Source of the DNA: Hydrogenimonas thermophila
Lineage (GTDB): Bacteria; Campylobacterota; Campylobacteria; Campylobacterales; Hydrogenimonadaceae
DNA length: 42,461 nucleotides
Direction: 5' to 3'
Assembly: GCF_900115615.1 (NCBI RefSeq)
Contig: NZ_FOXB01000019.1
Location: 1-42,461, forward strand
Made by a program: the position numbers and the translations under genes. Below, piece by piece: positions 335 to 21,171 of this stretch; positions within the stretch are counted from its first letter, which is position 1; every line of letters starts with the position of its first letter. The notes under the pieces were generated by a model, which saw nothing but the letters and a program-made list of their open reading frames with translations, searched no databases and was not told the DNA's origin.

Positions 335-511
335 CTAACTTTAAATTGATACCTTTAAAATAGTACCACAAAAATATAAAAAAAATAAATAAATATAGAT
401 GTTTATACTTCTCTCTGATCAAAAATAAACAACTGATTAGTACACTTTTTATTTCACCCTATTTTAACAGGAGTTAAAATATAGTTACAAAAAACTTATA
501 TGGAGAAAAGA

Positions 512-1834
512 GTGAAAAAGTTTGTAAACTGGGCGCGTACAACGATTTGCAAACCCAAAGATATTGTTTACCCTGAAACAGAAGAGGAAATTATAGAACT
601 GGTCAAGCTCTGCAATGCAAGCAAAACACCAATCAAAGTAGTTGGTGCCGGTCACTCATATAACGATATTTTCTGCCCCGGTGAAAATGGTGTACTTGTC
701 TCTTTAAAAAAGTTCAATGCACTTGAAAAAGTCGATAAAGAGAGACATCAAGTCACCTTCCAAGCTGGAATGCGAATGCCAAGACTCATTAAACTGCTTA
801 AAGAAGAGGGACTTTCAATCTCTAACCTTGGTACCAATGTGTTTGATAATGTAGCAGGTAGTTGTGCTACAGGCTACCATGGAAGTGGTATTAACTATCG
901 TATATTTAGCAACTTTGTCACCAAATTTGAGATCATCACACCAACAGGTGAAAAAAAGGTGATTACTAAAGATGACCCTGAGTATGACATCTATGCAGTC
1001 AGTCTTGGAATGTTGGGAATTGTCATTCGAATTACACTTCAGTGTGAGCCATATTTCAAACTAAAAGTAGTAGAAAAAAAGATGTCATTTGAAGCTATTG
1101 AGGCAGAGTTTGAGACCCTTTTGAAAGAAAATGACCACTTTAAATTCATCTGGATTCCGCATACTCGTGACTTTATGGTTTGGACAGCAAATAGAACTGA
1201 GGAACCAGCCAATGGGTGGTGGAAGATGTTTAAAACATACTTTGTGTCCGGAGTAATCATTAACAACTTCCTCCATGAACTGCTTCTCTTTTTTGCCTCA
1301 TTCAACCGCCGTTTAATTCCAAAAGTCAACCAATTAATGAGCCGTCTGCTACTGCCTGAAAAAAATGTTAGTGTATATCCATCACACTGGGCATTTTTCT
1401 TGCCACATGTGCTTAAGCAAGATGTTGTTGAATACGCCTTTAACATCAAAGATACCTTTAAAGTTTTTAGAGAAATTATTGAGATGATTGAAGAGAAGAA
1501 GATATATGTCGATGCCCCGATTGAGGTGCGCTTTGTAAAAGGTGATACCTTTTGGATGAGTCCAACCCAAGGTGAAGACACTTGCTGGATTGGTACAAAG
1601 ATCCACTTCCCACTTGGTCGTGAACCAGAATATTTCCGTTATTTCAGTGAAGTTGACCGTATATTGCTCAAATATCGCGGTCGTCCGCACTGGGGCAAAC
1701 AGTTCCGTATCACAACAGAAGAGTTTAAACATAACTACCCAAAATGGGATGAATTTTGGTCATTTGTCGAAAAAAACGATCCAAATGGAATTTTTACCAA
1801 CCGATTTATAAAACGTCTGAAAGGCGAAGCTTAA
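512..1834 (+). CDS. FAD-dependent sugar-1,4-lactone oxidase, ALO / gulonolactone oxidase family
   Basis: Oxidises an aldonolactone (arabinono-, gulono- or galactono-1,4-lactone type), or a related sugar alcohol, using FAD. The N-terminal half is an FAD_binding_4 (PCMH) domain with GAGHSYND; the His of that motif is the residue that carries covalent FAD in vanillyl-alcohol-oxidase relatives. The C-terminal ALO domain ends with GRPHWGKQF about 40 residues from the end. No signal peptide is visible. A GTG at 512 is preferred because GGAG lies 6 nt upstream; an in-frame ATG at 500 gives a 444-residue form but lacks a close ribosome site. It converges on the next gene, the two TAA codons overlapping in TTAA (1831-1834). 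The substrate is unknown; a sugar-modification role with the facing operon is inferred. Confidence 0.85.
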   Translation: MKKFVNWARTTICKPKDIVYPETEEEIIELVKLCNASKTPIKVVGAGHSYNDIFCPGENGVLVSLKKFNALEKVDKERHQVTFQAGMRMPRLIKLLKEEGLSISNLGTNVFDNVAGSCATGYHGSGINYRIFSNFVTKFEIITPTGEKKVITKDDPEYDIYAVSLGMLGIVIRITLQCEPYFKLKVVEKKMSFEAIEAEFETLLKENDHFKFIWIPHTRDFMVWTANRTEEPANGWWKMFKTYFVSGVIINNFLHELLLFFASFNRRLIPKVNQLMSRLLLPEKNVSVYPSHWAFFLPHVLKQDVVEYAFNIKDTFKVFREIIEMIEEKKIYVDAPIEVRFVKGDTFWMSPTQGEDTCWIGTKIHFPLGREPEYFRYFSEVDRILLKYRGRPHWGKQFRITTEEFKHNYPKWDEFWSFVEKNDPNGIFTNRFIKRLKGEA

Positions 1835-3021
1835 AGCTCGATGATTCTCTTCTCATCGAGGCTCCTTCGCCCTGCTTCTAAAATACGTGTTGTTGTCAAT
1901 GTATTTTGAATCGTAGGAAGGATGCGGTTATACTCTGCAAGATTTGATGGATTGTCACGCAGTGCCGACGCCGATTCTACAAAGGTTGCAAGGCTTTTAT
2001 AACCATACCCTTCTTGCCCGGCAAACTTTCCATCTCTTGGTGTATATTTCATAAAGAGTGGATTGGCACTTTGAAAACCATTTGTATCAGTTGAAACTGT
2101 ATAGCCTCTATGAGCTTGATCTACACGCACCTCACCATTATGCCCCATATAGAAAAATCTCTGCTGTGAGTGAACATCTGAAGGGGGAGCTATCCAACTG
2201 GCAGTATGGACACTCGTTGCCAATGCACCACTTTTTATGTTTTCCCACTGCACTGTCAATGTAATAGTATCTTCAACCTTTCGACCAAGTTTTTTATCTG
2301 CCACACCCGTAGCTGACGTAGCATAAACACTAATAGGTTTGGCTTTCTCACCTATCGCCCAACAAAGAAGATCAACATGGTGGCTGTTAAGATAGTAACT
2401 AATATCACTGCTAATCCCTGCCCACGCAGCAAAGGTGTTTAGCTGACTTTTTGGTTGGCTCATATAGCTGACAAAATAGCTAAAATCCCCAAAGGTTTGA
2501 ATTCTATCAACAGCATCGGCATAAATTGGATCAAACCGTTTATGCACTTCAAGCATTAAAAGCAGTCCTTTTTTTGCAGCCAAATCCATCAATATCTGAT
2601 GTTCTTGAACTCTCTTTACAAGCGGTTTGGCTACAAGTACGTGCATCCCTGCTTCAAGGGCATCTCGTGCAATAGTAAAGTGGGTATCATCTGGGGTAAA
2701 GATCATAACTGCAGATCCAGGTTTCATATCACTAAGTGCCTCTTTGTAAGCCTCATCATTGCGACCACTTTTTGGGTAAGCTTCAAATGATGTGTCAAGA
2801 TCGGTATATGCACTTTTAAGATTGGTCTCAAAGTGGTGTCGTACCGATTCAAAACGTGAAGCATCACGTCCTGCTAATCGAATATTACCAACCAAGCCAC
2901 GTGATCGCATATCAAAAAGGCTCAATGCCACAACACCAAAACTCTTATCTGATTGCGCTGCTTTTTGCTGAGCAAGTCCAGTTACATACTCTCCAATTCC
3001 TACAACCAACACATCAATCAT
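1831..3021 (-). CDS. Gfo/Idh/MocA-family NAD(P)-dependent oxidoreductase
   Basis: Predicted sugar or cyclitol dehydrogenase of 396 residues. A Rossmann start (VLVVGIGEYVTG) is followed by the domain's VLVAKPLVKR segment (family consensus EKP, with Glu replaced by Ala here but the catalytic Lys kept) and a NSHHVDLLCW helix supplying the usual active-site His. The C-terminal half is the substrate-binding alpha/beta fold. The start follows the upstream gene's stop by 1 nt, so it is the last gene of a three-gene minus-strand operon with the glycosyltransferase-like and acyl-ligase genes. Some relatives act as galacturonate reductases, but the substrate cannot be read from the sequence. Confidence 0.85.
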   Translation of the reverse strand: MIDVLVVGIGEYVTGLAQQKAAQSDKSFGVVALSLFDMRSRGLVGNIRLAGRDASRFESVRHHFETNLKSAYTDLDTSFEAYPKSGRNDEAYKEALSDMKPGSAVMIFTPDDTHFTIARDALEAGMHVLVAKPLVKRVQEHQILMDLAAKKGLLLMLEVHKRFDPIYADAVDRIQTFGDFSYFVSYMSQPKSQLNTFAAWAGISSDISYYLNSHHVDLLCWAIGEKAKPISVYATSATGVADKKLGRKVEDTITLTVQWENIKSGALATSVHTASWIAPPSDVHSQQRFFYMGHNGEVRVDQAHRGYTVSTDTNGFQSANPLFMKYTPRDGKFAGQEGYGYKSLATFVESASALRDNPSNLAEYNRILPTIQNTLTTTRILEAGRRSLDEKRIIEL

Positions 3022-3022
3022 C

Positions 3023-3757
3023 TTAATCCTTTACAATCGTTACAAAACCAGGTGAAATTCCCAAGGCTCTCAACTGTTTCTCAGCCCGCTCATTCTTTGA
3101 AGCCATTTTAGTAGCGTGGTAAGCTTCACGTTCTTTACAGCTCCACTGTGTATTCCATACTACACTCTTTAACTCAACCATTTTGGCATTCATAGAGTAA
3201 GGGTGCAATGTTTGCAGTAGTGAGATAGTTGCAACCTCTTCAACACCACCCGGAATACCAGGCAAATTGCCACTAGATACTGTTAAAAATCCTGTCAATC
3301 CAAGTTTTTCCAGATTCCAAAGAGCAAGAGTATTCCAAGGAGTTGTCCATCCTGTCAGCTCTACTTTTTGATTTTGATGTCCATGCATTTCGTGTAGCTT
3401 AGCACCAACTACCAAAGTATTACTGTCCAAATGACGTTCAAGAGATTTGATATCTTCAGGTAAAGCAGTAACTTCTATACTTTGAAAAAGAAGTTTTGTA
3501 GCTCCAACTGAAAGAGCTTTTTCTATAATCATATTTAATGGCTGTGTATAACCAATCCAGGGATGTATATGAAAAAGTTTTACTCTGTTACCAAAACGCA
3601 TCAGCATCTTACCAACACGTTGAAAGTAGCGATTATCAACGACAACTATAAGCAAATCACTGTAGCTTAAAACATTTTGACACCAAGCCTTGATCTGCTC
3701 AGGGTCTATAGGAACAGCTTCATTACTTGTATGCAGTCTTGTAGCTACAACTCTCAT
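3023..3757 (-). CDS. Unknown protein, possibly a GT-A glycosyltransferase-like fold
   Basis: A 244-residue soluble protein with no signal peptide or membrane span. I do not recognise a named family. The alternation of hydrophobic strands and helices (DLLIVVVDN, VKLFHIHPW, ATKLLFQSIEV, NTLVVGAKL) and the later TPWNTLALWNLEKLGLTGF segment resemble GT-A nucleotide-sugar transferases, but the metal-binding DxD is absent at the expected strand end (SIEV is there instead). Its ATG overlaps the ligase stop codon (ATGA, 3754-3757) and its stop abuts the oxidoreductase, so translation is probably coupled. Context suggests transfer or modification of a sugar; this is inference. Confidence 0.6.
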   Translation of the reverse strand: MRVVATRLHTSNEAVPIDPEQIKAWCQNVLSYSDLLIVVVDNRYFQRVGKMLMRFGNRVKLFHIHPWIGYTQPLNMIIEKALSVGATKLLFQSIEVTALPEDIKSLERHLDSNTLVVGAKLHEMHGHQNQKVELTGWTTPWNTLALWNLEKLGLTGFLTVSSGNLPGIPGGVEEVATISLLQTLHPYSMNAKMVELKSVVWNTQWSCKEREAYHATKMASKNERAEKQLRALGISPGFVTIVKD

Positions 3758-5478
3758 TTTACCCTCTTAAGACTTGGCACCAATGTACCGTTATTTAACT
3801 TATTATAAATTTCATCATATATTGGAGTATATACTCCATCGATCAACACATAGCAACAACCCTCTTTAAATCCTTTAAGCCCCTCTTTTGAGAGTCTGCT
3901 CTTTTGAATCTTCAGAGTTGAAGTGGTTTGATGCTTTTCATTAACGATTTTAAGAAAGTAAGGCAGTGCATGGTCAGCAACTCTCTTTCTCATCTCAGTT
4001 AAAAAAGAAGGAAGTATATTGGGCGACCACTTTTTAGCAGGAACTAGTGATGCCACCCCAATCTTGCCATTAATCCCAGGTAGTTCGATCCCATAAACAA
4101 CCACCTCTTCAAACTCACCAATTTGGCGAATAGCCTCTTCTACATCACTGCAGGCAACATTCTCACCTTTGTAACGGTATGTATCTCCCAAACGATCAAC
4201 AAATATGTAAAATCCATCAGAATTACGTTTTAAAAGATCACCAGAACGCCACCACAAATCACCTTCTTTAAAAAGGCTGCGAACCAGTTTTGCCTCATCT
4301 AAAGATGGATCAAGATAACCTCGGTAATGACCGCTTTCAACCTTAAAGAGTGCTTCACCAGGCACCTCATCAGGAACTACATTGAAATCCTCATCAACAA
4401 GTACCATCATTTTGTTACGCTCATCTTGTGGAGGAATGTAACCGCAGAAGCCAGGAATATCAAACCAATTAGTCAAAGCACCTGCTGGCATCTCTGTTGC
4501 ACCAAAATGTTCAACTACATGTTCAATGCCAAAATGCTCTATAACATCTTCCCAAAGATTTTTTGTTAAACCATTGCCGAATATAACTTTAAGAGAGCTA
4601 TTTGGATTTTCTCCATCTTTATATCGATTAAGTAAATATCGCCACAACTCACCTATATAGACCATATGCGTACATTTATAGCTATTAACATCTTCCCAAA
4701 AAGATGATACTGAAAACTTCTGCCGCAATACAGCATTGGCTCCGGCAAAAACAACACTTGAAAAAGCAACAGCCAACCCATTACCGTGAAACAGTGGCAA
4801 AGAGATGTAACAGCTATCATTTTCATCCATGGCAGTGCGCAGTGACCAAGCAACTCCTGCTCCAATCATTCGCCTATGGCTAAAAAGTGCCGGTTTGCTT
4901 GGTCCACTGGTACCGCTTGTAAAGATTACAAATGCAGCATCTTCCAATGTTGTAGAATGAACATCAAACTTCTTTTCTAATCTGTATGCTAAAGTTATAG
5001 CCTCTTCAATATCCCACTTTACACAACCATCAATACTGTTTCCAAAAACCTCATCTACTCCACTTCGTTTGGCAAGTTCTACAAGACGTGCTGACGGCTC
5101 TCTATGGTTAAAAAGTACAGCTAACCGCCCTGCTTTGTTGATGCCTATTAAAGCTGCAAGAAATAGAAAACTATTTGGAAAGTTAATCCCTATGCTATCT
5201 GATTTACTCTTTGAAAGAATAAAATTACAAATCTGATCTGATGCCCTGTCTAACTCACCATATGTATAACACTTTTTGGTTTCTACCTCTTTAACTACTA
5301 TCCTATCTGCATACTCTTTAGCACGTTCTTGAAAAATCTCTACCCAGTTAGTTACATTTTTTGATTCAATTATTTGCCAAATCGACGCTTCATTGGCTTC
5401 CATCTCTTCATAGAGCTTGCATAGCCCTTCACTCTTTGCATTGTTACTTTTTATTTTTTCTATTAATCTACTATTCAT
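3754..5478 (-). CDS. AMP-forming acyl-CoA synthetase, FATP/FadD6-like
   Basis: Adenylates a carboxylic acid, probably a fatty acid, and normally transfers it to CoA or a carrier. The 574 residues carry the ANL-superfamily signatures in order: P-loop FTSGTSGPSKP at about 186-196, FGATEMP at about 327, WWRSGDLLKR at about 412, the hinge DRLGDTYRYKGENVA, and a TSTLKIQK segment near 530 matching the C-terminal motif of fatty-acid transport proteins. There is no clear membrane helix. It is the first gene of the minus-strand operon, with coupled downstream genes for a glycosyltransferase-like protein and an oxidoreductase. An acylated sugar product is plausible; the real acyl substrate is unknown. 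Confidence 0.85.
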   Translation of the reverse strand: MNSRLIEKIKSNNAKSEGLCKLYEEMEANEASIWQIIESKNVTNWVEIFQERAKEYADRIVVKEVETKKCYTYGELDRASDQICNFILSKSKSDSIGINFPNSFLFLAALIGINKAGRLAVLFNHREPSARLVELAKRSGVDEVFGNSIDGCVKWDIEEAITLAYRLEKKFDVHSTTLEDAAFVIFTSGTSGPSKPALFSHRRMIGAGVAWSLRTAMDENDSCYISLPLFHGNGLAVAFSSVVFAGANAVLRQKFSVSSFWEDVNSYKCTHMVYIGELWRYLLNRYKDGENPNSSLKVIFGNGLTKNLWEDVIEHFGIEHVVEHFGATEMPAGALTNWFDIPGFCGYIPPQDERNKMMVLVDEDFNVVPDEVPGEALFKVESGHYRGYLDPSLDEAKLVRSLFKEGDLWWRSGDLLKRNSDGFYIFVDRLGDTYRYKGENVACSDVEEAIRQIGEFEEVVVYGIELPGINGKIGVASLVPAKKWSPNILPSFLTEMRKRVADHALPYFLKIVNEKHQTTSTLKIQKSRLSKEGLKGFKEGCCYVLIDGVYTPIYDEIYNKLNNGTLVPSLKRVK

Positions 5479-5550: not shown

Positions 5551-7242
5551 TTAGAAACTAATCTCTATAAACTCTACTCCATCTTTTGAGCCAATAAGTA
5601 AAAAGCTTCTAAGTTTAGGTATTGCCTTAACCTTCTCAATCTCTAAATAACCTTTAACCTGTTCAATTCCATCTTGCTTTATACTTTCATAGTTATCTCT
5701 GCTTTTAACCCATTTAAGCTCAAATAGGTAGTTATTTGGTACCTTCTCATCTCGTCCAATTAGTAAAATATCTGGATATCTTCTTTCAATCTCTGGTTGA
5801 GAATCAATAAAATAGAAGCTTGCAAAGCTTAGAAGAGAAAGTGTTATGATATGAAAATACTTCTCATCAAACCCCATATGATCACGATTGGAAAGAGTCT
5901 TTATGACTTCATTTAGTTGCTCTTTGAATGGATCTATCTTACCCATTGCCAAATCTCTTAGAATATGGTTAATATTGGCATCTATTTTTAGGTTATTCCT
6001 GCGATCTATCTCGATTGCAAAATAGTTAAAGTATAGCTGTTTAATAACATAGTTTGGTATCTCAAAATCATAAACATCACCAAATGTCTCATCTTTTAAA
6101 GTAATAAATCCCATAGAATAGATAAGCGTAATAAAGTCATCCTCACTAAAAGTTTTATTTAGATCATAGCGGTCTTTGATCGTACCTGTAATGTACCCTT
6201 TTTCTATAATCTCTTTTAAAATATCAAAATTTCTCTCTTTATCTCCAATGTTAAATAGACGCATAAGTGCTTTGTAGTCACTCGCTACATTGCTATCTAG
6301 CATTTTTTTAGGCTTCTCACAATCACTATAATCAAATCTTGAAATAAAGTAGTTAATAAGAGTAGCATTATAGATTCGATCTTTTACTTTAATTTGAAAA
6401 AGGTATCCATTATACCAAGCTTTTATCTCTTCTAAGAGTTCATCTTTTTTTATACTTTGACAACGTTTAAAGATTGTCTCATTTAAAGCATATTCTACTT
6501 CATCTTGTGTAAAGCCTGCCATTGCATTAAATGATTTATGATAAGAGATATTAGAAATAATATTAAACCCACTGCTTAAGCTATCGAGTGTGATAGGTGT
6601 AACACCTGTAATAAAAATTTTTTGAACTGTCCCTGTAAATGTAGCTGTCTTTAGCACCTCATAAAAGCTTCTTACAAATCCACCCTTACCTACAATCTTT
6701 AAAAAATCATCCATACTGTATGAAAGAATCGCATTTGCAAAGTGATCGTACTCATCGATTAGTATATAGATCCTGTCATCTTTAACGATCTCAAAAAAGT
6801 ACTCCATAAGTGAAGTTGGATTATTAATCTCTTTTAAATCCTCATAACTTTGAGGATAATTATAGCTTTTAAAATAGCTACTAAGTGACATCTTAATTTT
6901 AAACGTAAACTGTTCATAAATTGACTGCATAGATTCATCGGTATTAATACCGCTAAATTCAAAAAAGAGTATTCTAAAACTATTTTTTAATGGTGTTGGA
7001 TGCTTGCCAATATAGGTATCGCCAAAAAGTTCATCAAACTCACTTTTTGCATTCTCATCATAGTAATATTGAAGCGTTGAGAGAAAAAGAGACTTTCCAA
7101 AGCGTCTAGGACGTAGGAAGATTAAAAAATTCTCATTGAGTGATTCAAGCTTTTCGATATAACTGGTCTTATCTATATAAAGATAATTACTATCTATCTT
7201 TACTTTTCTGAAATTACTCTCACCATATATAATTTTTTTCAT
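5551..7242 (-). CDS. AAA-ATPase-like protein with C-terminal PD-(D/E)XK nuclease domain
   Basis: A 563-residue two-domain protein. The N-terminal AAA-ATPase_like domain (PF09820 type) begins near residue 8 and has the diagnostic FLRPRRFGKSLFLSTL P-loop near residues 42-57 and a Walker B-like YILIDEYDHF near 158. The C-terminus matches the PD-(D/E)XK_9 type: RRYPDILLIGRD followed by FELKW (D...ExK). This family is widespread and multicopy in Campylobacterota and Bacteroidota; its function is not established, though phage defence or mobile-element roles have been proposed. It stands alone between the sugar/lipid operon and the CDF gene, at the left edge of an accessory zone. Confidence 0.85.
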   Translation of the reverse strand: MKKIIYGESNFRKVKIDSNYLYIDKTSYIEKLESLNENFLIFLRPRRFGKSLFLSTLQYYYDENAKSEFDELFGDTYIGKHPTPLKNSFRILFFEFSGINTDESMQSIYEQFTFKIKMSLSSYFKSYNYPQSYEDLKEINNPTSLMEYFFEIVKDDRIYILIDEYDHFANAILSYSMDDFLKIVGKGGFVRSFYEVLKTATFTGTVQKIFITGVTPITLDSLSSGFNIISNISYHKSFNAMAGFTQDEVEYALNETIFKRCQSIKKDELLEEIKAWYNGYLFQIKVKDRIYNATLINYFISRFDYSDCEKPKKMLDSNVASDYKALMRLFNIGDKERNFDILKEIIEKGYITGTIKDRYDLNKTFSEDDFITLIYSMGFITLKDETFGDVYDFEIPNYVIKQLYFNYFAIEIDRRNNLKIDANINHILRDLAMGKIDPFKEQLNEVIKTLSNRDHMGFDEKYFHIITLSLLSFASFYFIDSQPEIERRYPDILLIGRDEKVPNNYLFELKWVKSRDNYESIKQDGIEQVKGYLEIEKVKAIPKLRSFLLIGSKDGVEFIEISF

Positions 7243-8231: not shown

Positions 8232-8648
8232 TTAAAACCTCAAAAGATTATTTAAAGGTTCTTTTTTTAGCGTTCTGTAAATATCATAATCACTATCGAT
8301 AGATAAAATATCCTTTATATTTTCTCTCTCTGCCAAAATTATCAAAGAGCAGTCGGCTAAATCCATTGGTACATCGCTATATTTTGTTGTTAAAAATATA
8401 ACTCTATCTATGTCATTTTTGTCTATTTGAAAAACATCTAAGCCACCTCTTTTTATCCACTCCAATAGATTAAGTTGAGCTTGAATACTTTGCCTTAACA
8501 GATGTGTAGCCTCTGTAATAACAGGCCAAGTCGTTATAAAACTTCCATCATACTCTCTAACAAACTCTAAAACTCTTTTGTGGTGTTTATCTCTCCTATT
8601 AAATAGTGCTACAATAGGTCCTGTATCAATTATGGTTGTGTTTTTCAT
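8232..8648 (-). CDS. vapC: PIN-domain ribonuclease toxin, VapC-like
   Basis: A 138-residue PIN domain; such toxins cleave tRNA or rRNA with Mg2+. The acidic active-site residues are visible: DTGP near residue 8, ITEATHLL near 44, and DLADCSLIILAE near 95-106 with SIDSDYDIYR after it. The ATG lies inside the antitoxin's 3' end (overlap 8626-8648), the standard coupling of vapBC operons. The CDF exporter gene follows after 1 nt. It lacks any sign of truncation, so the module should be functional. Confidence 0.85.
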   Translation of the reverse strand: MKNTTIIDTGPIVALFNRRDKHHKRVLEFVREYDGSFITTWPVITEATHLLRQSIQAQLNLLEWIKRGGLDVFQIDKNDIDRVIFLTTKYSDVPMDLADCSLIILAERENIKDILSIDSDYDIYRTLKKEPLNNLLRF

Positions 8649-8880
8649 TTAAAATCTCATCTAACTTTTGCTTATAGTTTGAAGACAAATCACTATCCCC
8701 ATCATAGACACCAAATAGATCTTTCCCTAAAGTGTAAGGAGTATTTTTTCTTTTTTCTTTTAAATTTTCCAAAAAAAAGAGTATAGCTTCTCTTACTATC
8801 TCTGTTTTTGTAGTCTGTTCCAATCTTGCAACATTGGCTAACTCTTGCTCAATATCTTTTGGCAATCTTACTGATAACAT
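8626..8880 (-). CDS. vapB: Ribbon-helix-helix antitoxin, VapB/CopG-like
   Basis: The start is placed at 8880 (MLSVRLPKDIEQELA), where AAGGAAA sits 4-6 nt upstream, not at the longer frame reaching 8916. The N-terminal ribbon (LSVRLPKDI) plus two helices (EQELANVARLEQTTKTEIVREAILFFLE) is the CopG/RHH DNA-binding fold. The C-terminal part (DLFGVYDGDSDLSSNYKQKL) is the usual toxin-neutralising tail. It binds and neutralises the downstream PIN toxin and likely represses its own promoter. Confidence 0.85.
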   Translation of the reverse strand: MLSVRLPKDIEQELANVARLEQTTKTEIVREAILFFLENLKEKRKNTPYTLGKDLFGVYDGDSDLSSNYKQKLDEILNEKHNHN

Positions 8881-9210
8881 CGTTTTCCTTTTCAGCCAAG
8901 GTTTGTATATCAACATTGTATTACACTCAAACTTTTATTCTACTTAGTGCCTTTACTAGACCAATTAAGAGATTGAAAATGAAGTTATAAAGTGGATGAA
9001 TGGGCGAATGTTGCTGTGAAATTTTGCACCCTATGACTTTAATAGTTGTAATCAGAGTCAAATAGAAGTGACATAATGTTCTCAGTTCAGAAAAAATAAT
9101 GAGATATATAAACAATTGATGAAGATAATAAATGCTTGAAATAATCTAATTTGTAAAACTTTTTTTATAAAATCACTAAAATACCGGTAAGGAAAAGTTT
9201 TTTATTTTAT
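8881..9210. other. Gene-free stretch between two toxin-antitoxin modules
   Basis: About 330 bases with no convincing gene. A 62-codon minus-strand frame (8927-9115) has no recognisable family or ribosome site and is probably chance. The right part runs into the 3' end of yoeB; the left part must hold the vapB promoter, but I could not define one with confidence. Confidence 0.5.
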
Positions 9211-10025: not shown

Positions 10026-10814
10026 TTACAAAGATTTATCCAGTCCTAAAAGAACACCAGCTTCTCTTTTCTGTTTAAGCCTGTAACTTTCACCTTGAAT
10101 ATTTAGTATATGACTATGGTGAATAAGCCTATCAAGTATAGCTGTAGTTAAAGCTTCATCATTGTTTAACACCTCCTTGAACTTAGTAAAAGATAGATTA
10201 CTGGTTATGATAATTGAGCCTGTTTCATACCTTTTGTTAATAACTTGGAAAAAAAGATTAGCCTGATTAGCATCTAGTTTGATATATCCAAATTCATCAA
10301 TAATTAAAAGCTTTGTTGTATTTATAACTTTTTTGAAATAGTGTTGCAGTCTATTGGTTTGTTGTGCTATTTCAAGCTGTAAAAGCAAATCTTGTGCAGT
10401 GATAAATTTGGTCTTTATTCTTGCTTGAGTAGCTAAATATCCTAAGGCAATGGCTAAATGTGTCTTTCCAACACCACTTGGACCAATTAGTAAAACATTT
10501 TGGGCATTCTCTATGAATCTAAGGGTAGATAACTCATTAATAATATTTCTATCTACTGGAGAAGATGAAAAATCAAAATCTTGCAAAGTTTTTACCTTTG
10601 GAAAACCTGCCATTTTAAGAGTAATCTCTTTTGCTCTTTGTATTTTTGTTTCATACTCATACTCAAATAGTTTCAATAAAAACTGAGTATAAGATAGATT
10701 CTTTTTAGCTGCTTCATCTGCAAGTGAAGAGAAACTATTCTTTATTGCAGGAAGCTTAAAAAGCGTAGCGTATGCTTGAATCTGTTCATTGATGGAAGCT
10801 ATGTTATTAGACAT
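10026..10814 (-). CDS. istB: IS21-family transposition helper ATPase IstB
   Basis: A 262-residue AAA+ protein that regulates target selection and stimulates IstA. Walker A is LLIGPSGVGKTHLAIALG at about 105-122, Walker B is LLIIDEFGY near 169, with a sensor-like SIIITSNLSF near 200. Length is normal for the family and no frameshift is seen. Its start overlaps the end of istA by 8 nt, the usual coupling. Confidence 0.96.
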   Translation of the reverse strand: MSNNIASINEQIQAYATLFKLPAIKNSFSSLADEAAKKNLSYTQFLLKLFEYEYETKIQRAKEITLKMAGFPKVKTLQDFDFSSSPVDRNIINELSTLRFIENAQNVLLIGPSGVGKTHLAIALGYLATQARIKTKFITAQDLLLQLEIAQQTNRLQHYFKKVINTTKLLIIDEFGYIKLDANQANLFFQVINKRYETGSIIITSNLSFTKFKEVLNNDEALTTAILDRLIHHSHILNIQGESYRLKQKREAGVLLGLDKSL

Positions 10815-11865
10815 AACTAGCCTCCTTTAGTAATTTTTCATACTCTATAAGAGATGATTGATAGATAATAAACTCTTTATCTATTGATTCAATCCTATGT
10901 TTAGATGTATAATTACTTTTTGAAGTTGTTAACGAGTTTGTTGGTTCTACTGCCAATATAAGTGGCAGTAGAGCCTTTTTCTCTATTTCAAATAGATCTT
11001 TTGGTTTTTGTTTTAGTGTACCGTGTACTCTATCATTAATTATCTCTAACCAACTAAATATTTGGCTATTTAAAAGTTGACAATCTATTTTTAAAGGTGA
11101 ATTTTTCAGTTTTGATCTCAAAGGAATATAGAAATTCCTTTTTAAATACCCAATAAATCTCTCAACCTTACCTTTAGTTTGTGCTCTGTATGGTTTACAT
11201 AACATTGGTGTAAAACCATAGGTTTTTGAAAAATCCAAAAACTCTTTATTGAATTTATGCTTTGTAGCGCCATAAGCATTTCTTTGAATAACAACACTTT
11301 TTAGATTATCGTAAAGTATACTCTTTGGAACTCCTCCAAAAAACTCAAAAGCCTTTTTATGGCACTCTTCAAATGTCTCATATCTCATATTATCTGTAAA
11401 ATGTACATATGCATATCTACTGTATCCTAAAATCATTACAAAGGCATAGATTGGACTTTTACCTGTTTTTATTACTGTCCAATCAACTTGTGCCTGAACT
11501 CCTGGCATTGTCTCAAATCTAATAACTTTCTCTTCTTTTAGTGGCAAAAATTCTTTATAAATAGCACTCATAAAACTTTGCAATATTCTAATCTTCCCTT
11601 TATAACCCTTATTTAATATCTCACGATATATTACAGTTGAAGGAATCCCATGTGGCAATGCATCTGCAATACGCTCTTTTATATACTCTTTAAATGGATC
11701 TAGCTTTGATTTATACTCTACTCTTTTTCTTGGCATTAACTCTTTTTCTTTTAATCTTTTGGAAATTGTCCTTCTATCTAACCCTGTCATTCTTGCAATC
11801 GCTCTTATACTGTACCCTTGTTTGTGAAGCGTATGTATCATTACAAACTCCTCATATGTAATCAT
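10807..11865 (-). CDS. istA: IS21-family DDE transposase IstA
   Basis: A 352-residue transposase. An N-terminal helix-turn-helix (GYSIRAIARMTGLDRRTISKRL) is followed by an rve integrase core with the acidic triad seen in VQAQVDW, SILYDNLKSV and KGKVERFIGYLK. It is at the short end for IstA but has all catalytic blocks and no stop. A palindrome CTCCAAATATTTGGAG (11874-11889) sits just upstream of the start. The element is probably active or recently so. Confidence 0.96.
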   Translation of the reverse strand: MITYEEFVMIHTLHKQGYSIRAIARMTGLDRRTISKRLKEKELMPRKRVEYKSKLDPFKEYIKERIADALPHGIPSTVIYREILNKGYKGKIRILQSFMSAIYKEFLPLKEEKVIRFETMPGVQAQVDWTVIKTGKSPIYAFVMILGYSRYAYVHFTDNMRYETFEECHKKAFEFFGGVPKSILYDNLKSVVIQRNAYGATKHKFNKEFLDFSKTYGFTPMLCKPYRAQTKGKVERFIGYLKRNFYIPLRSKLKNSPLKIDCQLLNSQIFSWLEIINDRVHGTLKQKPKDLFEIEKKALLPLILAVEPTNSLTTSKSNYTSKHRIESIDKEFIIYQSSLIEYEKLLKEASYV

Positions 11866-12657: not shown

Positions 12658-13677
12658 GTGAATAAAGCGCAAGGCAAAATAAACAATATTAAAATTTATA
12701 ATTTTAAAATATTTAGAAATTTAGAAGTAAAAGATTTAAAAAGAGTAAATTTAATAGGTGGGAAAAACAATATTGGTAAAACCGCTTTTTTAGAAGCAAT
12801 AGAGTTAGTTACACTGCCTAAAAGTATTATTGAAATAGTTTATTGCGTTAATAGAATTCTTACTAGAAGATATAACGATCTTAAAAATATTGAATTTGAT
12901 TTTTTTTATGATGAAAACAAAGAGTTAAAAATAGATATAAATAGTCATCAAAAACTCTCTATGGAGATTTTCCCACTAAAACAGCAAAACTTTAGATTGC
13001 TGATTGATGATCAAGAGATATTGCCAGAACCTTATATGAAAATATGGTTCAATCATCAAGATAGACAGTTGCCAGTTAGTATGTTGACAAAAAATCAAAA
13101 AAATATAAACAATTTTATGAGTAAAAATGTAAAGTTTATCCCAAGTAGCTCTTTAAATACACTCTTGATCTCAATTTTATATGGAAATTTGATTGAGTTT
13201 GATAAAGAGGAGTTTTTAAATAACTCATTACAACTTTTTGATCAAAATATCAAATCTCTAAAACAAATAGTAAAAGAAAATGAAGTTGTTTTAAAAGTAA
13301 AATTAACAGATAGATTGGTTCCACTCTCATCTCTTGGTGAAGGAATAAATCGCTTCATAGCAATACTTTGTGCTATATGGTCTAGTAAAGATGGCTATTT
13401 ACTGATCGATGAAATAGAAAATGGAATACACTATACTAACTATGAAAAGCTTTGGAAAATAATCTTTGAAGCTTCAAAAGAGGCAAATTGTCAAGTTTTT
13501 GCAACTACACACTCAAAAGAGTGTATAGAAGCTTTTAATAAAGTCAATAAAGAAAATGAAGGTGCTTATTTAGAGTTTTATATGAATAAAAAGACCAATA
13601 ATATTTTAGTTAAAAATAGAGACTATGAGCAGTTAAGTTATTCACTTTCTCATAAAGGAAGGTTTAGAGGTGAATAA
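12658..13677 (+). CDS. AAA/ABC-type ATPase, OLD/RecF-like, of a two-gene defence-like unit
   Basis: A 339-residue SMC/RecF-like ATPase of the AAA_15/AAA_21 type. It opens with the family's INNIKIYNFKIFRNLEVKDL, then Walker A GKNNIGKT (35-42), an ABC-signature-like SSLGEGINR (224-232), Walker B YLLIDEIEN (247-255) and the switch His in ATTHS (282-286). The coiled-coil insertion is short. It starts at GTG with GGAG 8 nt upstream and ends 8 nt inside the next gene, a TOPRIM protein. ATPase plus TOPRIM nuclease is the layout of OLD, Gabija GajA and PARIS (AriA/AriB) systems. Function as phage or plasmid defence is inferred. Confidence 0.88.
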   Translation: MNKAQGKINNIKIYNFKIFRNLEVKDLKRVNLIGGKNNIGKTAFLEAIELVTLPKSIIEIVYCVNRILTRRYNDLKNIEFDFFYDENKELKIDINSHQKLSMEIFPLKQQNFRLLIDDQEILPEPYMKIWFNHQDRQLPVSMLTKNQKNINNFMSKNVKFIPSSSLNTLLISILYGNLIEFDKEEFLNNSLQLFDQNIKSLKQIVKENEVVLKVKLTDRLVPLSSLGEGINRFIAILCAIWSSKDGYLLIDEIENGIHYTNYEKLWKIIFEASKEANCQVFATTHSKECIEAFNKVNKENEGAYLEFYMNKKTNNILVKNRDYEQLSYSLSHKGRFRGE

Positions 13678-14323
13678 ACTTATAGTAGAAAGTAAAAATG
13701 ATAAATTTTTTATAGAAAAATTGATAGAACATTTGAATATTAAAAATATTGAAATAGATGAACCTTTATGCAATATAGATGAATTTGTTTGTTTAGATGG
13801 AATATCAAATCTAAAATATAAACTTGAAGATCTGAAGCTTGATTCTGGAGAAATAGATAAATTAGGAATTATTTTAGATGCTGATAAAATAGGAATAGAT
13901 CAAAGATTAGAACAAGTAAATAATATTTTAGAAGAATTGAATATCAATATTAAGTTTACAAAAAATAATGAGATTAAGTACGATAAATCTAATGATATTG
14001 AAATAGCTTGTCACATTTTAAATATAGATGGTTTTGGAGAATTAGAAGATATCCTGTTTCAAATTAAAAACTCAGATTCTGTTTTTGCTGACTGCTTAGA
14101 GAGCTGGAAAGAATGCCTTGATAAAAATGACAAAAGTATATCTGAAAAAGATTTCATTAAGTTTTGGATAAGTAATTACATAAGATTTGATACTTGCACT
14201 AAAAAAGAGCAAAAACAAGCTAAAAAAAATTGCAATTTTGAAAAAGCTTTGCAAAAAGATATTTGGGATTTTGAACATAAAGTTTTAGATAGCTTAAAAG
14301 AATTTTTAAAGATATTTGAATAA
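13670..14323 (+). CDS. TOPRIM-domain protein, DUF3226-like, partner of the AAA ATPase
   Basis: A 217-residue protein. LIVESKNDKFFIEKL at the N-terminus holds the TOPRIM Glu (E7), and LGIILDADK supplies the DxD pair (D70, D72); the spacing fits DUF3226/TOPRIM proteins. The C-terminal 90 residues are helical and Lys/Asp-rich. The ATG is inside the ATPase gene (8-nt overlap), so expression is coupled. Known relatives associate with AAA ATPases in defence islands; it is not the DUF4435 AriB of PARIS as far as I can see. A nuclease or effector role, released or activated by the ATPase, is inferred. Confidence 0.75.
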   Translation: MNKLIVESKNDKFFIEKLIEHLNIKNIEIDEPLCNIDEFVCLDGISNLKYKLEDLKLDSGEIDKLGIILDADKIGIDQRLEQVNNILEELNINIKFTKNNEIKYDKSNDIEIACHILNIDGFGELEDILFQIKNSDSVFADCLESWKECLDKNDKSISEKDFIKFWISNYIRFDTCTKKEQKQAKKNCNFEKALQKDIWDFEHKVLDSLKEFLKIFE

Positions 14324-20584: not shown

Positions 20585-20809
20585 ATGCACAGAACACAAA
20601 TCTATTTTGAAGAGACCCTTTTTGAAGAGTTGAAAAAACAGGCTAATTTAATGGGTATGTCACTATCAGCTTACATAAGAGAGACTTTAAAAAATGATTT
20701 AAAAAATAAAAAGTCAAAGCAAAACAGAGTTAATTTAAAAGAGTTTTCTGGAATGTGGGAAAATAGAGATATTTCACAAGAATCTTTAAGAAAAAAAGCT
20801 TGGAAATGA
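20585..20809 (+). CDS. vapB: Ribbon-helix-helix antitoxin, VapB-like (second module)
   Basis: Starts at ATG 20585 (MHRTQIYFEETLFEELKKQA) with GGAG 6 nt upstream; in-frame ATGs at 20567 and 20573 are less likely. The ribbon HRTQIYFEE and helices SLSAYIRETLKNDLKN are typical RHH_1 features. The C-terminal WENRDISQESLRKKAWK is the toxin-binding tail with the usual Trp. ATGA overlap with the toxin gene shows coupling. Confidence 0.85.
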   Translation: MHRTQIYFEETLFEELKKQANLMGMSLSAYIRETLKNDLKNKKSKQNRVNLKEFSGMWENRDISQESLRKKAWK

Positions 20810-21171
20810 TCATATTAGATACTAATGTTTTAATAGAAATATTAAAAGGAAATAACAAAACTGTTAAAAAAGTTGAATCATTTGATGAAATTTTAGCTAT
20901 ATCATCCATCAGTGCAATGGAGCTTTTCTATGGAGTACTAAATAAAAATGAAACTAAACAACTTGAAAAATTTATATCTTTATTTGAGATTATCCATTTA
21001 AATGAAACAATTTCTAAAAAAGCTTTAAAATTGATAAATAAGTATGCAAAAAGTCACTCTTTGGATATTCCAGATAGTTTAATAGCAGCCACTACGATAG
21101 AAACCAAAAGCAAATTATTTACTTATAATATAAAGGACTTCAGATATATTGATAACTGTAACTTGATTTAA
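20806..21171 (+). CDS. vapC: PIN-domain ribonuclease toxin, VapC-like (second module)
   Basis: A 121-residue PIN domain starting at the ATG of the ATGA overlap (a TTG two codons upstream is possible). Catalytic acids appear in LDTNVLIEIL, SAMELFYGV and LDIPDSLIAATT, with the final NIKDFRYI block. The sequence is intact. This module is unrelated in sequence to the vapBC near position 8.5 kb, so cross-neutralisation is unlikely. Confidence 0.88.
   Translation: MIILDTNVLIEILKGNNKTVKKVESFDEILAISSISAMELFYGVLNKNETKQLEKFISLFEIIHLNETISKKALKLINKYAKSHSLDIPDSLIAATTIETKSKLFTYNIKDFRYIDNCNLI

Follow-up and report, generated by a model that had tools for sequence, protein, structure and literature searches.

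A rare four-gene set in Hydrogenimonas thermophila combines a lactone-oxidase-type flavoenzyme with an acyl-ligase operon that includes an orphan protein family

The window, a 42,461-nucleotide stretch of Hydrogenimonas thermophila DNA (contig NZ_FOXB01000019.1), carries near its start a set of four genes that encode three known kinds of enzyme and one protein of an orphan family. The set itself is confirmed, and its interpretation as a rare accessory pathway is partly supported. On sequence grounds, and at slightly less than even confidence, we propose that the four co-inherited genes make up a horizontally mobile accessory biosynthetic module, the product of which would be an acylated, oxidized sugar. 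The proposal of one shared module draws on the co-occurrence of the genes in two genera that belong to different families, the conserved order of the operon and the retained catalytic residues of the oxidase and the ligase, from which we infer that the four genes serve one product. In the following, the 2.44-Mb H. thermophila genome that holds the window is termed G000, a second Hydrogenimonas genome, which is a metagenome-assembled genome (MAG), is termed G201, and the second genus, of a family other than that of Hydrogenimonas, is termed g49, with the members G410, G465, G470, G510 and G511. The features of the locus are as follows.

500 to 1834, plus strand: FAD (flavin adenine dinucleotide) sugar-lactone/alditol oxidase of the ALO type, 444 residues (open reading frame with Pfam, NCBIfam and PDB profile matches)
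1831 to 1834: TTAA, a 4-bp overlap holding the stop codons of the oxidase (plus strand) and the Gfo enzyme (minus strand)
1831 to 3021, minus strand: Gfo/Idh/MocA oxidoreductase, 396 residues (open reading frame with Pfam matches)
3023 to 3757, minus strand: orphan protein, 244 residues (open reading frame without a Pfam family)
3754 to 5478, minus strand: AMP-forming ligase resembling FATP/very-long-chain acyl-CoA synthetases, 574 residues, first gene of the operon (open reading frame with Pfam and NCBIfam matches)

The ligase, the 244-residue protein and the Gfo enzyme are encoded in this order by a three-gene operon on the minus strand (5478 to 1831). The reading frames of the ligase and the 244-residue protein share 4 bp, whereas those of the 244-residue protein and the Gfo enzyme are separated by 1 bp, so translational coupling within the operon is likely. 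All four reading frames lie where the initial annotation had placed them, and the operon is as tightly spaced as it had stated. The oxidase is a real gene, but its start is at 500, and the position 512 given previously is an internal in-frame GTG. The oxidase had also been described as facing the operon; the two do lie on opposite strands, but they converge tail to tail, so the oxidase is not co-transcribed with the operon. In G201, the stop codons overlap in TTAA at each of the two oxidase loci as well.

The operon was found in seven genomes, namely 2 of 18 in Hydrogenimonas, searched with the ligase, and 5 of 175 in the second family, searched with the 244-residue protein, and the order ligase, 244-residue protein, Gfo enzyme is kept in all seven. 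A full-length oxidase is present in six of the seven and in no other genome of the sets searched. Co-conservation of the four genes, on which the initial annotation had staked its proposal, was found in this form. Searches with the 244-residue protein covered 200 genomes of the class and the 175 of the second family; in Hydrogenimonas they comprised the four genomes listed by the class sample, and the ligase serves as proxy for the operon in all 18. Within these 18, a ligase ortholog (77% identity) and a full-length oxidase are both limited to G000 and G201; the next full or long ligase matches are below 30% identity, and nine other genomes give oxidase matches of about 41 to 45 bits that cover the FAD domain only (within residues 12 to 208). 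Among 397 genomes of the class, the Gfo enzyme and the oxidase, each searched at E 1e-20, were both detected in G000 and G410 and in no other. In the second family, the profile of the 244-residue protein matches five genomes, all of genus g49; at E 1e-40, the profile of the oxidase matches four genomes, all of them among these five. Fisher tests of the co-occurrence of oxidase and operon gave p = 1.3e-7 (n = 175) and p = 0.0065 (n = 18), both inflated by shared ancestry.

In g49, the oxidase lies about 7 kb from the operon in G410 and about 26 kb in G510, and on a separate contig in G465 and G470. As the oxidase is unlinked yet present, the link between the two is one of co-inheritance and not of position alone. 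Between the genera, the identity is 58-60% for the ligase, 63-64% for the 244-residue protein, 75-78% for the Gfo enzyme and 67-68% for the oxidase. The four-gene arrangement recurs in G201 with different flanks, which, together with the operon in five g49 genomes, places it beyond chance.

The oxidase matches PF04030 with 210.5 bits (cut-off 23.1) and PF01565 with 89.9 bits (cut-off 26.4). Compared to the NCBIfam models of sugar-lactone oxidases, it falls short of the cut-offs, with 282.1 bits against 396.8 for TIGR01678 (sugar 1,4-lactone oxidase) and 250.9 against 292.25 for TIGR01679. It shares PF01565, PF04030 and the Glu-x-Arg and HW-x-K motifs with the aldonolactone oxidoreductases and alditol oxidases of the VAO family (GULO, ALO, GalDH and AldO/xylitol oxidase, PDB 2vfr). 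Its best single PDB match is a xylitol/alditol oxidase, so polyols are conceivable substrates as well. Profile alignment to the structures of ancestral L-galactonolactone dehydrogenase (GalDH) showed that Glu386, Arg388, Gly413 and Lys456 of GalDH correspond to Glu342, Arg344, Gly365 and Lys400, and that the gatekeeper Ala113 of GalDH corresponds to Gly111, which makes the window oxidase similar to ALO and GULO at this position. All five residues are invariant in the seven oxidase copies from six genomes. Published work on GalDH states that Arg388 and Lys456 contact the O2 atom of the substrate, that the counterpart of Gly413 in GULO is Asn, a difference relevant to substrate preference, and that a glycine takes the place of Ala113 in fungal ALO and animal GULO (PMC11099136). 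Judging by these residues, the protein likely uses O2 and acts on a lactone or a polyol. PHROGs holds no family for the oxidase.

The ligase scores 146.4 bits against PF00501 (cut-off 29.9), and its best NCBIfam model is NF006134 (long-chain acyl-CoA synthetase), of the FATP/very-long-chain acyl-CoA synthetases (SLC27, PRK08279), with 390.8 bits, under the equivalog cut-off of 625. Its best solved relative is FATP2, aligned over ligase residues 176-565. The AMP signature and the C-terminal lysine motif TSTLKIQK are invariant in all seven sequences. The adenylate-forming motifs are common to the FATP-type relatives, whereas the window ligase is partnered with sugar enzymes. In PHROGs, it has two matches (E 1.1e-11 and 1.7e-9), both to families of unknown function. 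The Gfo enzyme matches PF01408 with 53.4 bits (cut-off 24) and PF22725 with 30.5 bits (cut-off 27), and its one match in PHROGs is weak (E 0.024), again to a family of unknown function. With all Pfam scores over their cut-offs, the family assignments of the initial annotation (lactone oxidase, FATP-like ligase and Gfo/Idh/MocA enzyme) hold.

The 244-residue protein is the orphan of the set. No Pfam family matched it at E up to 1, PF00535 included, and no glycosyltransferase family matched three of its members with E as high as 10 allowed, within the filters of HMMER. PHROGs, PADLOC and the PDB profile search returned no relative, and the match to an NCBIfam rhamnosyltransferase model is not significant (E 0.13). 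Between G000 and G201, 86% of its residues agree although identical residues are encoded by different codons in 44% of cases, and the seven sequences share 146 invariant columns out of 244, so this protein is, as judged from its coding pattern, under selection.

It had been annotated as similar to GT-A glycosyltransferases but lacking the DxD motif. The latter part stands, as SIE at 93-95 is found in place of DxD and is invariant in all seven sequences, a position inferred from weak alignments. A structure model computed from two sequences reached a pLDDT of 39.8; in this low-confidence model, strands and helices alternate in the N-terminal half, as in GT-A proteins, an order similar to that of the GT2 glycosyltransferases, from which the protein differs in lacking PF00535 and in having SIE for DxD. 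Structural similarity search using Foldseek found no match at E 0.001, and the rows from Foldseek and VIA-align (the latter with Z under 8) are mixed alpha/beta folds; among the matches listed are some glycosyltransferases, some nucleotidyltransferases and many dehydrogenases. We also compared the family with GT2 proteins at the profile level, using 30 GT2 loci minus L056, L061 and L067 (wrong reading frame), that is 27 entries, in which L063 and L076 represent one protein, and 168 control reading frames, after removal of two candidates for similarity to GT2. The pooled GT2 profile aligned to that of the 244-residue protein with an hhalign probability of 3.6, and the best control scored 25.7, above the best GT2 entry at 23.1. 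The same alignment register was obtained for 11 of 27 GT2 entries (8 of 19 clusters, a cluster counting if any of its members did) versus 8 of 168 controls, which lends weak support to GT-A likeness, the test having been chosen after the result for the scores. Taken on the sequence and the model, likeness to GT-A is somewhat probable, whereas the fold itself is not established, given the model confidence and the score test described below.

If the four genes act together, the Gfo enzyme would use NAD(P) to oxidize (or reduce) a sugar or a derivative of one, for example an aldose to an aldonolactone, and the ALO-type flavoenzyme would oxidize the lactone, or a polyol, further, passing electrons probably to O2 and giving an ascorbate-like compound or a keto-sugar. 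Such a pairing is a natural one, with Gfo enzymes producing aldonolactones and ALO enzymes oxidizing them. The FATP-like ligase would activate a carboxylic acid to the acyl-AMP or acyl-CoA, the acid being either a fatty acid or the sugar acid itself. The 244-residue protein, if a degenerate GT-A protein, might bind a nucleotide sugar or join the sugar to the acyl part. The product would then be an acylated, oxidized sugar limited to a few lineages of the class. The initial annotation had suggested a pathway making or breaking such a compound; the enzyme families and their co-conservation agree with this, whereas the acylated-sugar chemistry is at present a proposal. It had also stated that no described pathway has this combination, and none was found in the literature searched; this search, which returned no paper on the four-gene set, covered few subscription journals, and the name Gfo/Idh/MocA is not searchable as written.

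A more specific product is conceivable but quite improbable, namely an ascorbate-like molecule with a lipid anchor, in the form of an acylated 2-keto-aldonolactone that might serve as a membrane antioxidant or redox carrier. Here the Gfo enzyme would yield the lactone and the oxidase the enediol, to which the ligase and the degenerate GT-A protein would attach an acyl chain. If true, bacteria would have a route of their own to an analogue of acyl-ascorbate.

The same enzymes could also work in the opposite direction, in a catabolic module in which an imported acylated sugar or sugar acid is oxidized by the Gfo enzyme and the oxidase, and the ligase activates the acid released so that it can enter beta-oxidation. 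All three recognized enzyme families occur in catabolism, and the nearest solved relative of the ligase, FATP2, fits this direction. However, a GT-A-like partner would be unexpected in catabolism, and inspection by eye of the loci read showed no gene for a sugar transporter, a glycoside hydrolase or beta-oxidation adjoining the operon, where most flanking reading frames were judged without a family search. We regard a catabolic role as unlikely.

Several observations weigh against the biosynthetic module. The enzyme families are broad. The g49 genomes all belong to one genus, so the independent cases number about two, that is, the two genera. G511 holds the operon, on a 7.5-kb contig, and no oxidase was found in this genome, which is 87% complete. 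The g49 oxidase sits in a different putative operon, together with two half-size permeases. The glycine gatekeeper of the oxidase is not decisive, as AldO, itself an oxidase, has an alanine at this position. Moreover, the histidine of the GHS motif (His52, putatively FAD-linking) is present in the three Hydrogenimonas copies of the oxidase, whereas in the four g49 copies it is Asp, in contrast to the VAO-family relatives. Many, but not all, members of the family bind FAD covalently via the GHS histidine, as AldO does. The GT2 score test of the 244-residue protein was not significant (p = 0.16, 27 GT2 entries versus 168 controls). Finally, the Gfo/Idh/MocA catalytic triad consists of Lys (in EKP), Asp and His; the Gfo enzyme keeps Lys132, in AKP instead of EKP, and His214, in common with dehydrogenases such as inositol dehydrogenase and YvaA/YhhX, which also share PF01408 and PF22725 with it, but in all seven sequences Tyr210, four residues before His214, occupies the expected position of the catalytic Asp. 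The alignment at this position rests on PDB 3fhl, which has Asn there, and is gapped in the row of inositol dehydrogenase, so the equivalence is tentative. Tyr210 is a sequence-level caution against assuming ordinary Gfo chemistry.

The surroundings of the oxidase bear on another explanation, that two separate functions share one mobile island, with the operon of ligase, 244-residue protein and Gfo enzyme on the one hand and a stand-alone ALO-type oxidase on the other. Such an oxidase may, for example, act in alditol or lactone detoxification linked to metal or metalloid resistance genes. The relevant features are the following.

454 to 486, plus strand: element upstream of the oxidase, with a perfect 7-bp inverted repeat, TTTTAAC-AGGA-GTTAAAA, at 462-479
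L026, 2516-3453: half-size permeases after a g49 oxidase
L040, 7478-8424: half-size permeases after a g49 oxidase
L041, 556-1502: half-size permeases after a g49 oxidase
L042, 205-1169: half-size permeases after a g49 oxidase

The oxidase is convergent to the operon and has its own upstream element, possibly an operator or promoter, the repeat of which occurs exactly only once within the window; the element is identical in locus L003 and, by eye, degenerate and farther upstream in L039. In the g49 genomes, the oxidase stands away from the operon and is followed by two half-size permeases of the same direction in all four genomes that have it. One permease of G410 matches PF03773 (ArsP_1) with 39.2 bits, over the cut-off, and the other with 24.3 bits, below it; those of the other three genomes were recognized by eye. 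From this arrangement, the pair is possibly an export system for the oxidase product.

In G201, an ArsR protein is found upstream of the oxidase at both loci. The cassette there is flanked by an RND pump (by eye) and a VIT1-family protein on one side and by ArsR on the other. A second oxidase, in L039 (G201:C74, 2646-6288), is convergent with the 3' end of a Gfo gene on a separate contig; its DNA is 89-90% identical to that of the two other copies from Hydrogenimonas, and upstream of it lie a CI-like repressor, beyond this ArsR, and an ArsC-type protein. L039 may represent a duplicate cassette or a strain mixture in the MAG.

The two ends of the cassette also differ in history. Between G000 and G201, nucleotide identity declines from 94.9% in the oxidase to 74.2% in the ligase, with 97-99% in the initial 500 bases of the oxidase and 61-66% in the initial 300 bases of the ligase, and codons at identical residues differ in 12% of cases in the oxidase and 46% in the ligase. 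This gradient indicates different recent histories for the two ends, as would be expected if the oxidase end had been exchanged between lineages. These features speak for two functions; however, in the sets searched a full-length oxidase is restricted to operon genomes, being present in six of the seven, even where it is unlinked, and for unlinked genes that strictly co-occur a shared island alone is insufficient. We consider two separate functions a real but lesser possibility.

The ArsR, ArsC-type and ArsP-like neighbors of the oxidase, which occur in both genera, might alternatively point to biosynthesis of arsenosugars or arsenolipids, but neither ArsP_1-like nor ArsR proteins are rare or specific to arsenic, and we rate this explanation as very improbable. 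The arsenosugar pathway was dropped after ArsS (TIGR04167) was found over its cut-off in none of 18 genomes, all seven operon genomes included.

Returning to the module of four co-inherited genes, the cassette was likely acquired horizontally, to judge by its composition and surroundings. Its third-position G+C ranges from 0.28 to 0.37, compared to 0.224 (sd 0.043) in 21 other genes of the window, two of which reach 0.29 and 0.30. A repeat of about 340 bp at 1-340 of the window ends about 155 bp before the oxidase and has seven further long copies in the genome, one of them at the start of contig C8. An IS21-type element lies beyond the operon.

10026 to 11865: IS21-type istA/istB pair

Known plasmids and phages gave no close relatives of the set. 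The 244-residue protein had no match in plasmid and phage sequences (tblastn), and viral contigs, scanned with this protein, its alignment and the Gfo alignment, held no relative. In genome contigs scanned with short exact peptide patterns of the 244-residue protein, its one named relative was on a Hydrogenimonas MAG contig, apparently contig C67 of G201. Plasmid matches of the other three proteins were all below 60% identity (442 records for the ligase, 229 for the Gfo enzyme and 113 for the oxidase), with top identities among the 25, 25 and 15 matches listed of 37.1%, 29.0% and 30.7%, respectively.

Several other genes of the window were noted. A protein with AAA-ATPase_like and PDDEXK_9 domains (5551-7242) directly adjoins the operon; by eye, it was not seen next to the operon of any other genome read. 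An AAA_15 ATPase and a DUF3226 protein (12658-14323), which match AbiLi/PDC-M38A and PDC-M38B in PADLOC, form a candidate two-gene phage-defence system. PIN-domain proteins are encoded at 8232-8916 and 20800-21171, the first adjoining a short reading frame that appears antitoxin-like by eye.

The orphan family accompanies the set in every genome where the set was found, and the four genes are few enough to be transferred to a laboratory host with a direct readout of the product. If the proposal is right, they would represent a small, rare pathway in bacteria of the Campylobacterota type that pairs oxidase chemistry of the vitamin C kind with acyl activation.

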